Of a DNA stretch of 64,000 nt, positions 32,007-38,676 are shown piece by piece (position 1 is the stretch's first letter; every line of letters starts with the position of its first letter). The position numbers and the translations under genes were made by a program. Below the pieces are notes generated by a model. The model was given only the letters and a program-made list of their open reading frames with translations, had not been told where the DNA came from and searched no databases. This DNA comes from Blastococcus mobilis (GTDB taxonomy: Bacteria; Actinomycetota; Actinomycetes; Mycobacteriales; Geodermatophilaceae), in contig NZ_FZNO01000015.1 in assembly GCF_900188025.1 (NCBI RefSeq), positions 62,001 to 126,000 on the forward strand, given 5' to 3'.

Positions 32007-33452
32007 TCAGGCGCGTGGAGAGCGCAACTCCACCACGGTGACCTCGGGCCGGGCCCCGATCCGCATCGGCGGCCCCCAGTATCCGGCGCCCGAGGTGACG
32101 TACAGCTGGGTGTCCCCCTGCCGGGACAGGCCCTCGACCGCCGGCTGGTCGAGCCGGATCGCGTGGTCGAAGGGCCACAGCTGCCCGCCATGGGTGTGCC
32201 CGGACAACTGCAGGTCCACCCCCGCCCGTCGCGCCTGCTCGACCATCACCGGCTGATGAGCCAGCAGGACGACGGGCGTCGCGTCGTCCCGGCCGTCGAG
32301 CGCGGCGTCCAGGTCGGCGGCGTGGCCGGGCACACCCGAGGACGCCGCCGTCCGGTCGTCGATGCCGGCCAGGTCGAAGGTCGCCGTCCCCCGGCGGATG
32401 GCCACCCGCTCGTTGCGCAGCACGTCGATGCCCAACGTGGGCAGGTGCTGCAGCCACGCCTCGGTGTCGACGAAGTACTCGTGGTTGCCGGTCACGAAGA
32501 AGACACCCTGCTCGCTCACCAGCTCGGCGAGGGGTGCCGCCTCCTCGCGGAGCTCGGACACGTCGCCGTCGACCAGGTCGCCGACGATCGCGACGACGTC
32601 CGGCCGCTGCGCGTTGACCAGCTCCACCAGCCGCTCGAACCGCCGTCCGCCGTAGGTGGCCGACAGGTGCGCGTCCGAGAAGGTGACGATGCGCAGCCCG
32701 TCCAGGGCCGGGTCGAGTCCGGCAAGAGTGACCGGCACGCGGCGGACGACGGGCGGCGAGTTGGCGAAGTACGCCCCGGTGCCCCCCGTGGCAAGAGCCA
32801 CCGTGCCCGCGGTGACGGCCAGGCTCCGGGCGAGGAACAGCCGGCGTGAGGGGGCGGTGACATCGCGGTCCTGCCGGACCGCACCGCGATCAGGTGCCGT
32901 TCCCTCGTCACGTGGAGCCGTTGCGTCGTCCCTGCGCGGAGCCCTCCGGGCCCCACTCGGGACGACCACCCCATTGGACTCAGCACCACGACCCCCCGCC
33001 CCACTCGGGACGACCACCCCATTGGGCTCAGCACCACGACCCCCCGCCCCACTCGGGACGACCACCCCATTGGGCTCAGCACCACGACCCCCCGCCCCAC
33101 TCGGGACGACCTCGCGGTCCGTGCGTCGCAGGACCTCGTTCCTGACGAACCGCACCGGTTCGAGGGCCAGCAGGGCGAGGAAGGCGTAGAAGGCGACGCC
33201 GAGCCAGCTGTAGGCCACCCAGTCGAGGGGCGCGGCCGCGTCCAGGGGGAGGGTGCGCCGCAGGGTCAGCGCCAGCGCGGGCAGCAGCGCCAGCACCAGG
33301 GTCAGCACCGTCAGCCGACGCCGCAGCTTTCCGGGGCGGGTGGTGCTGCGGACCAGCCGGAACCACAGGTAGCCGTGCAGCAGCAGCATCGCCGTCAGCA
33401 CCACGGTGCCGAAGCCGAGCAGAAGGATCACCGACACCGGCGCGCCCGCCAC
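32007..33452 (-). CDS. Membrane metallophosphoesterase with a repeat-expanded linker
   Basis: A 481-residue protein. N-terminal membrane helices (about 5-28, 45-65, 75-98) are followed by a charged linker, a further hydrophobic/Tat-like segment (RRLFLARSLAVTAGTVALAT, about 205-224) and a calcineurin-type phosphoesterase domain (about 240-475). Metal ligands are visible in FSDAHL, GDLVDGD, GNHEYFVD, LLAHQP and SGHTHGGQ. The substrate is unknown; relatives act on phospholipid or nucleotide phosphoesters. The linker (about 115-165) holds 16-residue repeats (VVPSGAGGRGAEPNGV) from a 48-bp DNA minisatellite, unusual for this family. Confidence 0.85.
   Translation of the reverse strand: MAGAPVSVILLLGFGTVVLTAMLLLHGYLWFRLVRSTTRPGKLRRRLTVLTLVLALLPALALTLRRTLPLDAAAPLDWVAYSWLGVAFYAFLALLALEPVRFVRNEVLRRTDREVVPSGAGGRGAEPNGVVVPSGAGGRGAEPNGVVVPSGAGGRGAESNGVVVPSGARRAPRRDDATAPRDEGTAPDRGAVRQDRDVTAPSRRLFLARSLAVTAGTVALATGGTGAYFANSPPVVRRVPVTLAGLDPALDGLRIVTFSDAHLSATYGGRRFERLVELVNAQRPDVVAIVGDLVDGDVSELREEAAPLAELVSEQGVFFVTGNHEYFVDTEAWLQHLPTLGIDVLRNERVAIRRGTATFDLAGIDDRTAASSGVPGHAADLDAALDGRDDATPVVLLAHQPVMVEQARRAGVDLQLSGHTHGGQLWPFDHAIRLDQPAVEGLSRQGDTQLYVTSGAGYWGPPMRIGARPEVTVVELRSPRA
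32951..33115. repeat. 48-bp coding minisatellite, about 3.4 copies
   Basis: GGACGACCACCCCATTGG plus 30 further bases repeats every 48 bp, in frame, inside the metallophosphoesterase linker. The units are nearly identical (one A/G difference between the first and the others), so copy number may vary between strains. Confidence 0.85.
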
Positions 33453-36054: not shown

Positions 36055-38676
36055 TCAGCCCACGCGGTCGGTGCCCGCAGCCCGGAGCAGGTCCTCGGCC
36101 GTCGGATCGATCAGCACCCGCCCGTCGGAGGCGACGACGACGGGACGCGCCTCCTGCAGCGCATCGATCTCGGCGAGCATCGACCGCGCCGTCGCGTCCT
36201 CCGCCGGGTCCAGCCACCGGTGGGCGATGCGGTGCGCGGTGAGCGTCTCCAGGAGCTCGGTGCTCGCCGGCCACCGGGGATCGCCCACCACCCGCAGACC
36301 GGACGCCCGCCCGATGAGCATGGCTCGCCGCAGCAGGAACGCCCGCATGATCACGTCGGCCAGCTCCCGGTCGGCCGCTATCACCTGCCGCAACCGCTGC
36401 ACGGTGAGCGTGACCACCGCTCCGGGCGTGGCCGCGATCACCGACCGGACGGCACGCTGACCGGCGAGCATGTTCAGCCCGCCGAGGAACCGGCCCGGGC
36501 CCACCACGGAGACCACGCGCGGCTGCTCACCGTCGCCCGGCTCCGCGTCTTCGACCACCGCGACGGTGCCTTCCAGCACGACGACGAAGTCCCACTCGCT
36601 GGATCCGCCCTGGACCAGCACCTCACCGGCCGTCGTCGTCCGGCGACGCCCTGCCCGGCGGAGGACGGCGAGCTGCCGGGCGTCCAGGCGTGGCGATGCC
36701 CCGGTCGGGTCCGGGGTCTCGGCCAGGCCCCCGACCGCCGGCAGCCGTACCCAGGGGGACATCGCGACGGGCGACCGACCGCCTGGTTCCCGAGCCGGAG
36801 CAGCGGCGCGCTCCGTCGGCGTGCCGCGGGGATCGGTGCGCAGCAGGGCCGCCGCCAGCTCGTCCGTGCCCGCCCAACCCGCGTGCCTGACCCCGTTGAC
36901 GAAGAACGTGGGAGTGGCCTCGACACCGCTGGCCTCGGCCCCGGCCACGTCATCGCGCACCCGCTGGCCGTAGGTGCCGTCACCGAGCTCGCGCGCGAAC
37001 CGCTCGAGGTCCAGCCCGAGACCGGCGGCGTGGTCGAGCAGGCCCGGGGCGTCGAGCTCGTCCTGGTGGGCGAACAACCGGTCGTGCATCTCCCAGAACC
37101 GCCCCTGCGCTCCGGCCGCCTCGGTCGCCTCCGCGGCGAGCTGGGCGTGCGGGTGCACCTCGACGAGTGGCAGGTGCCGGAAGACGTAGCGCAGGTCGTC
37201 GCCGAACCGGCCGCGCAACTCGCTGACGACACCGGTGGCCCGACCGCAGAAGGGGCACTCCATGTCGCCGTACTCGACGAGCGTCAGCGGGGCGTCGACC
37301 GGCCCGCGGATGTGGTCGACCGCCGGGTCCACCGGGGGGTCGAGCGCGTCCGGCCGCTCCGGTGCGCCCCCTCCCCGGCCCAGCAGCCGGAAGAAGAGCG
37401 CGCCCAGCGCGGCCGAGACGACCGCGGCGGCCAGGATGCCGACCGTGGCCTCCTCCCGCAGCTCCGCGTCGTCGAAGGCCAGGTCGGTGACGAAGAGCGA
37501 GACCGTGAAACCCAGCCCCGTCAGGGCGGCGCCGCTCCACACGCTGCCCAGGCTGACGCCGGGCGGGAGGACGCCGAGCCGCAGCCGGACGGCGAGCGTC
37601 GCGGCGAGCCCGACCCCGAGCAGCTTGCCGACCGCCAGGCCGACGAAGACGCCGATGGTCACCCGGGAGGTGAGCGCCCGCTCCAGCAGTGCGCCGTCGA
37701 TCCGCACGCCGGCGTTGGCCAGCGCGAAGACCGGGACGACGAGGTAGCTGCTCCACGGGACGAGGACCGCGCCGATCCGCTCGTTGGGGGAGACCGCGCG
37801 CTCCACCGAGAGCTTCGCCTCGCGCGCGACGCCCGGCTCCGGCGACTGCCGGAACGCCCGGGCCAGGGAACCGGCGCGCTCGATTTCGGCCCGGCGTGGG
37901 GGATAGGCGCTGACCAGCAACCCCAGGACCACCCCGCCGATGGTGGCGTGCACCCCGGACTCGTACATGGCCACCCACATCACCGCGCCCACGGCGAAGT
38001 AGGCGGGCCCCCGCCACACCTGCATGCGGGACAGCCCGATGAAAGCGAGCACGCACGCCCCCGCGATCCCGAGCGCGACGAGATCGATCTCGTCGGAGTA
38101 GAAGATCGCGATCGCGCTCAGCGCCCCGATGTCGTCGACCACCGACAGCGACAGCAGGAAGACGCGCAGCTGGATGGGGCAGTGCTGGCCGAACAGGGCC
38201 AGCGCGCCGAGCACGAAGGCGGTGTCGGTGGCCATCGGGATGCCCCAGCCCACCGCGCCCTCGCCACCGGCGTTGATCGCCAGGTAGATCAGCGCCGGGA
38301 GGACGAGGCCGGCCACCGCGGCGAGCGCCGGAATCCTCAGCCGGCTGCGCTGCACGAGCTCGCCCATCGAGAGCTCGCGGCGGACCTCCATGCCGATCAG
38401 GAAGAAGAAGAAGACCATCAGGCCGTCGTTGACCCAGTGCTGCAGGTCCATGGCGATCTGGGCGTCGCCGAACCGCAGCGCCACCTCGGTGTGCCACAGC
38501 CGGTCGTAGGAGCTCCCCCAGGGGGAGTTGGCCCAGGCCAGTGCCAGCAGGGTGGCCGCGACCATCAGGCCCGCGCCGGCGACGCCGGAACGGATGAGCC
38601 TCCGGACGGGAGCGGAGAGCTGCGCCGCGAGGTGGGCCGACCCGGTCCGGCTCGAGCCGGCGAGAGTCGTCACCAC
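36055..38676 (-). CDS. NhaA Na+/H+ antiporter fused to DsbA-like, cNMP-binding and glutaredoxin-like domains
   Basis: An 873-residue four-part protein. (1) NhaA antiporter, about 25-440: many helices, with the paired aspartates in SLSVVDDIGALSA essential for ion exchange and FFFFLIGMEVRREL near the N-terminus. (2) DsbA/thioredoxin-like domain, about 455-635, with CPFC at about 473 and the cis-Pro region ATPTFFVNG. (3) Crp-type cyclic-nucleotide-binding domain, about 660-785. (4) Glutaredoxin-like domain, about 789-873 (GLRVVGDPRWPASTELLETL), without a CxxC. NhaA-thioredoxin fusions are known in actinobacteria. The cNMP-glutaredoxin tail is otherwise seen before thioredoxin-reductase domains, so this combination is unusual. 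GTG 38676 or 38673 starts it, possibly leaderless after TACCGT. Confidence 0.87.
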   Translation of the reverse strand: MVTTLAGSSRTGSAHLAAQLSAPVRRLIRSGVAGAGLMVAATLLALAWANSPWGSSYDRLWHTEVALRFGDAQIAMDLQHWVNDGLMVFFFFLIGMEVRRELSMGELVQRSRLRIPALAAVAGLVLPALIYLAINAGGEGAVGWGIPMATDTAFVLGALALFGQHCPIQLRVFLLSLSVVDDIGALSAIAIFYSDEIDLVALGIAGACVLAFIGLSRMQVWRGPAYFAVGAVMWVAMYESGVHATIGGVVLGLLVSAYPPRRAEIERAGSLARAFRQSPEPGVAREAKLSVERAVSPNERIGAVLVPWSSYLVVPVFALANAGVRIDGALLERALTSRVTIGVFVGLAVGKLLGVGLAATLAVRLRLGVLPPGVSLGSVWSGAALTGLGFTVSLFVTDLAFDDAELREEATVGILAAAVVSAALGALFFRLLGRGGGAPERPDALDPPVDPAVDHIRGPVDAPLTLVEYGDMECPFCGRATGVVSELRGRFGDDLRYVFRHLPLVEVHPHAQLAAEATEAAGAQGRFWEMHDRLFAHQDELDAPGLLDHAAGLGLDLERFARELGDGTYGQRVRDDVAGAEASGVEATPTFFVNGVRHAGWAGTDELAAALLRTDPRGTPTERAAAPAREPGGRSPVAMSPWVRLPAVGGLAETPDPTGASPRLDARQLAVLRRAGRRRTTTAGEVLVQGGSSEWDFVVVLEGTVAVVEDAEPGDGEQPRVVSVVGPGRFLGGLNMLAGQRAVRSVIAATPGAVVTLTVQRLRQVIAADRELADVIMRAFLLRRAMLIGRASGLRVVGDPRWPASTELLETLTAHRIAHRWLDPAEDATARSMLAEIDALQEARPVVVASDGRVLIDPTAEDLLRAAGTDRVG

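Follow-up and report, generated by a model that had tools for sequence, protein, structure and literature searches.

An NhaA antiporter fused to DsbA-like, cNMP-type and glutaredoxin-like domains in Blastococcus mobilis and related Geodermatophilaceae

In bacteria of the family Geodermatophilaceae, an NhaA-type sodium/proton antiporter is fused in a single reading frame to a DsbA-like thioredoxin domain, a cyclic-nucleotide-binding (cNMP) type domain and a glutaredoxin-like domain. We analysed this gene in a 64,000-nucleotide stretch of Blastococcus mobilis DNA (contig NZ_FZNO01000015.1 of assembly GCF_900188025.1, positions 62,001 to 126,000; referred to as the window, whose own positions are used below), where one open frame on the minus strand (36055..38676, read from 38676) of 873 codons and a stop encodes all four parts in a protein of 873 residues. 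A preliminary description of the window, made from the sequence alone, had reported four parts in one frame, and this was borne out: the same join is present in 52 of 108 genomes of the family. That description knew of no account of such a device, and no description of the four-part fusion was found in the literature we searched, with most subscription journals lying outside it. Fusions of NhaA and DsbA without the C-terminal tail (the cNMP-type and glutaredoxin-like parts) are widespread.

The fusion gene and its distribution

Pfam matched the 873-residue protein with Na_H_antiport_1 (residues 26-428, E-value 1.6e-131), Thioredoxin_4 (454-610, 8.9e-18), DSBA (465-607, 8.7e-13) and cNMP_binding (680-768, 5e-9), all above the gathering cut-offs. 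Upstream, the frame stays open to 39081; codons 1 and 2, both GTG, are the candidate starts and lie close to those of the relatives. In the aligned fusions, the mean consensus identity was 0.81 for the NhaA part, 0.87 for the DsbA-like part and 0.69-0.71 for the tail.

Counting as a full match any gene that extends from residue 12 or earlier to residue 863 or later of the window protein, we found a single frame with all four parts in 52 of the 108 family genomes, that of B. mobilis among them; in 51, no internal stop interrupts it. By genus group, the 52 are seven in g1 (one of which, G014, has a TAA), five in g2, 18 in g9, 21 in g3 and one in g12; the four-part genes of the family belong to Blastococcus, Modestobacter and Geodermatophilus. 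Broken-frame copies are present in two further family genomes, G008 (locus L089) and G032 (L065). The internal stop or broken frame of these two loci and of L087 (G014) marks them as assembly errors or decaying genes. A four-part gene is also present in SPQJ01000028.1 (L096), a record titled Bacillus sp. AZ43 and marked unverified, whose title is probably wrong.

This distribution bears on the explanation that an assembly or frame error joined neighbouring genes. Conservation is lowest in the linker between the DsbA-like and cNMP-type domains (mean consensus identity 0.57 for residues 612-655), and an in-frame ATG lies there; both would fit such an error. However, the same join occurs in 51 other family genomes and is uninterrupted in 50 of them, the linker ATG is not conserved in the relatives compared, and the GC content of third codon positions remains high (0.85-0.99 in 75-codon steps as far as codon 825) through the linker. 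We therefore rejected the artefact as extremely improbable; a frameshift or stop between the DsbA and cNMP parts, named in the preliminary description as what could refute its reading, is excluded by the 50 uninterrupted genomes. The linker ATG was also rejected as a separate start for the tail, since the relatives compared do not share it.

The preliminary description had also proposed a count of the architecture across genomes, and two cases add to the 52 in the family. In the class, the tail was matched at an E-value of 1e-35 or better in 26 of 296 genomes (own included). Of the other 25 genomes, ten were checked at one locus each for the surroundings of the tail, which revealed nine loci with a reductase domain and one four-part fusion, that of G510 from another order, in a frame of 941 codons that matches the window protein at 50% (NhaA), 70% (DsbA) and 38% (tail). 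The remaining 15 genomes were judged by their open frames alone, all of which were shorter than 700 codons and thus too short for four parts. Within the family of G510 (22 genomes), only G510 gave a full match, while an NhaA-DsbA match was found in 11 of 12 genomes of the genus group g115. The second case is a metagenome-assembled genome labelled Quadrisphaera, in which a four-part gene is cut off by the contig start.

Two-domain NhaA-DsbA fusions, of about 620 residues and annotated as NhaA where annotated, have the same domain order and lack the tail. Family members with such a gene are G072 (58%), G034, G004, G009, G045 and G046, and G040 carries one as its second gene. The fusions also occur on plasmids from very diverse bacteria: of 637 records matched by the NhaA-DsbA query, 17 cover 80% or more of it. 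In the 15 two-domain plasmid records listed, identity to the four-part query is 45-49% and the match extends over 62-70% of its length. No four-part copy was found in 72,556 plasmid records when a single place had to cover 80% or more of the four-part query; 1859 of them gave a match. The genome of B. mobilis has no other match to the tail at an E-value of 1e-3, and G039 carries both the thioredoxin reductase type and the four-part form.

Domains of the fusion protein

The antiporter part (residues 26-428, 37393..38601; all features are on the minus strand) belongs to the NhaA family, with 439.1 bits for PF06965 (cut-off 23.5) and 330.8 bits for TIGR00773 (cut-off 254), and shares the full-length domain with E. 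coli NhaA. Alignment to the E. coli structure 1zcd showed that the columns of D133, D163-D164 and K300, which we take to be the key residues of E. coli NhaA, are kept in the fusion; D151, D181, D182 and K351 of the fusion are invariant across 22 aligned fusions. The adjacent D181-D182 (38131..38136) occupy the columns of E. coli Asp163-Asp164, so the intact antiporter Asp pair of the preliminary description holds, as does its CPFC motif. Position 208 is Cys in 19 of the 22 fusions. Plain NhaA is the subject of PMC3382624.

Unlike E. coli NhaA, the fusion has three added C-terminal domains and an extra conserved stretch in loop VIII-IX (residues 255-291, 37804..37914), which has 37 residues as compared with five in E. 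coli NhaA between the same aligned blocks. Its mean consensus identity is 0.82 in the 22 fusions. Loop VIII-IX of E. coli NhaA is cytosolic and regulatory. Among thirty chosen loci, most of them judged by eye with a script pattern catching four, the long loop was found in 25 of 25 NhaA loci linked to DsbA (21 fused, four with a separate DsbA gene nearby) and a shorter loop in five of five plain NhaA loci (four genes, one of them represented twice, and two being the second NhaA of the own genome). This second NhaA gene encodes a single Pfam domain, with no further Pfam domain at an E-value of 1e-5. The protein (L001, G000:C85, 9763-13902) ends in an acidic DxDxDG-type stretch resembling a calcium-binding tail.

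The DsbA-like domain (residues 454-610, 36847..37317) was matched with the solved DsbA relatives 4pwp and 3gyk. Its CPFC motif (residues 474-477, 37246..37257) provides C474 and C477, the sole cysteines common to all 22 aligned fusions, and T588-P589, also invariant in the 22 fusions, is like the TP of thioredoxin cis-Pro loops. By sequence, the domain thus has the CxxC motif and the cis-Pro loop of a DsbA-like oxidoreductase in a thioredoxin fold. At three loci (L092, L093 and L094), NhaA and DsbA genes are convergent neighbours and unfused.

The tail follows a linker (residues 611-679, 36640..36846) containing an ETPD motif, and is homologous to the N-terminal module of about 220 residues of cNMP-type thioredoxin reductases, as the preliminary description had suggested. 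ETPD is common to both, lying in the linker of the fusions and near the start of the reductases. The tail relatives examined outside fusions are N-terminal modules of pyridine-nucleotide-disulfide reductase proteins, the reductase domain behind them having been recognized by Pfam in three and by a match to one reductase part in the others. A thioredoxin reductase from the Red Sea has been described as carrying a cyclic-nucleotide-binding domain (PMC6544261). The cNMP-type reductases, composed of a cNMP domain, a Cys-less glutaredoxin-like domain and an FAD/NAD(P) domain, share with the fusion tail the module, ETPD and the absence of the canonical Arg and of CxxC. They differ in that the module is C-terminal in the fusion and has no reductase domain behind it: Pfam gave no reductase match, and the frame ends behind the tail.

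The cNMP-type domain (Pfam match 680-768, 36373..36639) scored 36.4 bits with PF00027 (cut-off 27.5). In a cNMP cassette, an Arg binds the phosphate and a Glu is the other canonical residue. We compared these columns in 52 tails, namely 19 of type A (the clade of the window), 13 of type B and 20 from thioredoxin reductases, leaving out L133. The canonical phosphate-binding column is Arg in none of the 52 and Ala in the window protein. The Glu column is Gly in all 19 type A tails and Glu in all 13 of type B and in 18 of 20 reductases. An Arg two residues past the canonical column is found in 19 of 19 type A tails, two of 13 type B tails and none of the 20 reductases. Because the canonical Arg is absent and the Glu is replaced by Gly, the usual cAMP or cGMP binding by type A tails is doubtful, although their Arg two residues further on speaks against a plain loss. 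Since the reductase homologues also lack the Arg, and the Arg two residues later as well, the usual binding seems to have been lost before the fusion. The cyclic-nucleotide sensor of the preliminary description is thus weakened.

The glutaredoxin-like domain (residues 791-868, 36073..36306) gave only a trace with the single sequence (mycoredoxin, E-value 0.051, 14 bits against a cut-off of 89.5), whereas a profile of the 22 tails matched mycoredoxin Rv3198.1 (2lqo) with an E-value of 2e-5 at profile positions 151-210. The similarity covers the last 60-80 residues of the fusion and does not extend to the active-site cysteines: the tail of the window protein has no Cys, and hence no CxxC of a glutaredoxin or mycoredoxin. 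The lack of CxxC had been seen in the preliminary description, whose two redox domains are accordingly reduced to one, the DsbA-like domain with a redox-competent CPFC.

Across 13 pairs, the ratio of nonsynonymous to synonymous substitution rates (dN/dS) was 0.14-0.42 for the tail, as compared with 0.11-0.22 for NhaA and 0.06-0.48 for DsbA, and the ratio of tail dN to NhaA dN ranged from 0.9 to 4.4.

Origin of the tail and gene neighbourhoods

Trees of the tail and of the NhaA-DsbA part showed two fusion clades: clade A contains Blastococcus, Modestobacter and the window, and clade B contains Geodermatophilus and its kin, joined in the tail tree by the Quadrisphaera genome. One genome of the Modestobacter group (L150, G085) holds both fusion types, A and B. 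The tail tree included 47 of 53 tail loci (omitting L070, L074, L075, L132 and L152 as near-duplicates and L133 as partial), and the NhaA-DsbA tree 36 of 43 loci (omitting the same five and the partial L131 and L148). L087, L065 and L089 are absent from alignments A1-A3 and the trees. Alignment A4 holds the window and related loci with an in-frame piece of the L065 gene (as L099), without L119 and five near-duplicates, and the tail alignment of fusions and reductases consists of 21 chosen rows.

Two changes are required for the fusion tails in the tail tree and likewise for the four-part rows in the NhaA-DsbA tree; among 200 bootstrap trees, a single change sufficed in 9% for the former and in 1% for the latter. 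The starred branches force only one change in either tree, and a single clade of tails was not rejected (p-AU 0.443). The tail may have had one origin or two, two being what the free trees require. Because the trees are unrooted, a second gain of the tail and its loss from some two-domain forms are equally possible. The simplest order of assembly suggested by these unrooted trees would be NhaA joined with DsbA first and the tail added later.

In the window, the fusion gene is flanked by a DUF2382/PRC-barrel gene on one side and a carbon-nitrogen hydrolase gene on the other. All 13 Blastococcus-type loci hold both, with the hydrolase gene more distant in L066 and L088. None of the window's neighbours sought with ten queries was found at eight of eight Modestobacter and five of five Geodermatophilus loci; one of these queries, aminoT, was probably in the wrong frame, since the stretch there gave no Pfam match. 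As the neighbours differ between genera, the fusion is kept as a unit while its surroundings change. A minus-strand gene for a calcineurin-like phosphoesterase, elsewhere in the window, has a linker in which a stretch of about 18 residues (VVVPSGAGGRGAEPNG type) occurs three times almost unchanged (about 32930-33100).

The neighbours of the relatives hint at oxidative or electrophile stress. MarR, FMN reductase and luciferase-like genes surround the four-part gene of G510 (L169), an AhpC/TSA (peroxiredoxin-family) gene lies upstream of the two-domain gene at L090, and a glyoxalase-type gene is near that of G072. Among eight plasmid loci compared, two of them without annotation, the two-domain gene has frmR, a formaldehyde dehydrogenase gene and uvrA near by on an Aeromonas plasmid, alcohol dehydrogenase and uvrA genes on Stutzerimonas and Rhodococcus plasmids, and formaldehyde dehydrogenase genes together with an adjoining adenylate/guanylate cyclase-domain gene on a Shinella plasmid. 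The two-domain genes L184, L185, L187 and L188, near uvrA and/or aldehyde or alcohol dehydrogenase genes, may form part of a mobile aldehyde-resistance set.

Possible control of the antiporter

We tentatively propose, as the likeliest reading, that the fusion is a thiol- or redox-controlled antiporter with a logic like that of Kef, in which loop VIII-IX is a possible contact. KefB and KefC are K+/H+ antiporters gated by glutathione adducts; the likeness is in the proposed logic only, that is, thiol or electrophile control of exchange, and Kef carries other ligand-binding domains. For such gating we count the conserved four-part frame, the purifying selection, the kept NhaA columns, the CPFC motif and the long loop, together with the tail homologous to thioredoxin reductases and the stress-gene context of the relatives. 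All three added domains would be cytosolic. The DsbA-like domain would be the sensing part: the thiol or disulfide form of CPFC, or the binding of a low-molecular-weight thiol or adduct, may alter the contact of the domain with the extended loop; the altered contact could then turn ion exchange up or down under oxidation or electrophile exposure, in the manner of Kef. The tail would be a helper, possibly a non-canonical ligand-binding, dimerising or docking module that tunes exchange. The fuller version, a thiol- or electrophile-gated Na+/H+ antiporter in which DsbA reads the thiol state and contacts the loop and the module shared with thioredoxin reductases, which has probably lost the usual way of binding cyclic nucleotides, acts as a second sensor or dimeriser, is a more doubtful proposition.

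Several observations weigh against redox gating. The cytosolic placement rests on the topology of E. coli NhaA, and unfused NhaAs also carry the long loop. In the 22 aligned fusions, the NhaA part holds no column that is Cys throughout, which makes a simple mixed disulfide with the antiporter unlikely, although 19 of them have Cys at position 208. The window's neighbours form no clear redox operon, nor do the two Modestobacter loci inspected, which hold short-chain dehydrogenases. The Aeromonas, Stutzerimonas and Shinella plasmid contexts share a near-identical NhaA and look like one mobile-element lineage, so that two or three independent context hints are left at most; a Tsukamurella plasmid locus has no fitting gene, and a Streptomyces locus only an oxidoreductase.

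The absence of an all-Cys NhaA column would also fit a different role, in which the antiporter serves chiefly to anchor the protein in the membrane or as a location tag, the DsbA domain is an ordinary thiol oxidoreductase with other proteins near the membrane as its substrates and a tail that helps to place or dimerise it, and exchange is not redox-gated. The intact CPFC and later TP and the occurrence of DsbA genes as separate neighbours of NhaA genes agree with this role, but a mere anchor would not need an antiporter part as well conserved as this one (0.81) with an invariant Asp pair, and we regard it as rather unlikely. Alternatively, the cNMP-type domain could be a real non-canonical sensor of a nucleotide or small ligand that controls exchange, the DsbA part being secondary. 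Its score above the Pfam cut-off, its purifying selection, the Arg two residues past the canonical column in every type A tail and the cyclase-domain gene adjoining the Shinella two-domain gene are consistent with such a sensor. We consider it unlikely, however, as the canonical column lacks Arg in all tails compared, the Glu is Gly throughout type A, the 20 reductase homologues point to a loss of the usual binding before the fusion, and the Shinella protein, at 621 residues, has no room for a cNMP tail.

It is quite improbable that the tail is a structural leftover of recombination with a thioredoxin reductase gene and has no regulatory role. The high tail dN in some pairs, the missing catalytic Cys and canonical ligand columns, and the two-domain relatives that do without a tail would all be expected of a leftover; yet two diverged clades retain the tail, which reaches at least residue 863 in each of the 52 family genomes, and its dN/dS is low.

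Blastococcus, Modestobacter and Geodermatophilus are genera known from stone and arid soil. If redox gating is true, sodium and pH homeostasis would be tied directly to the thiol state of the cell in these bacteria, and the thiol- or electrophile-gated antiporter would be a Kef-like safety valve built of unrelated parts. The fusion is also a natural test object for the role of the cNMP-type module of thioredoxin reductases when the usual cyclic-nucleotide binding is impossible, and for why NhaA and DsbA are so often joined.

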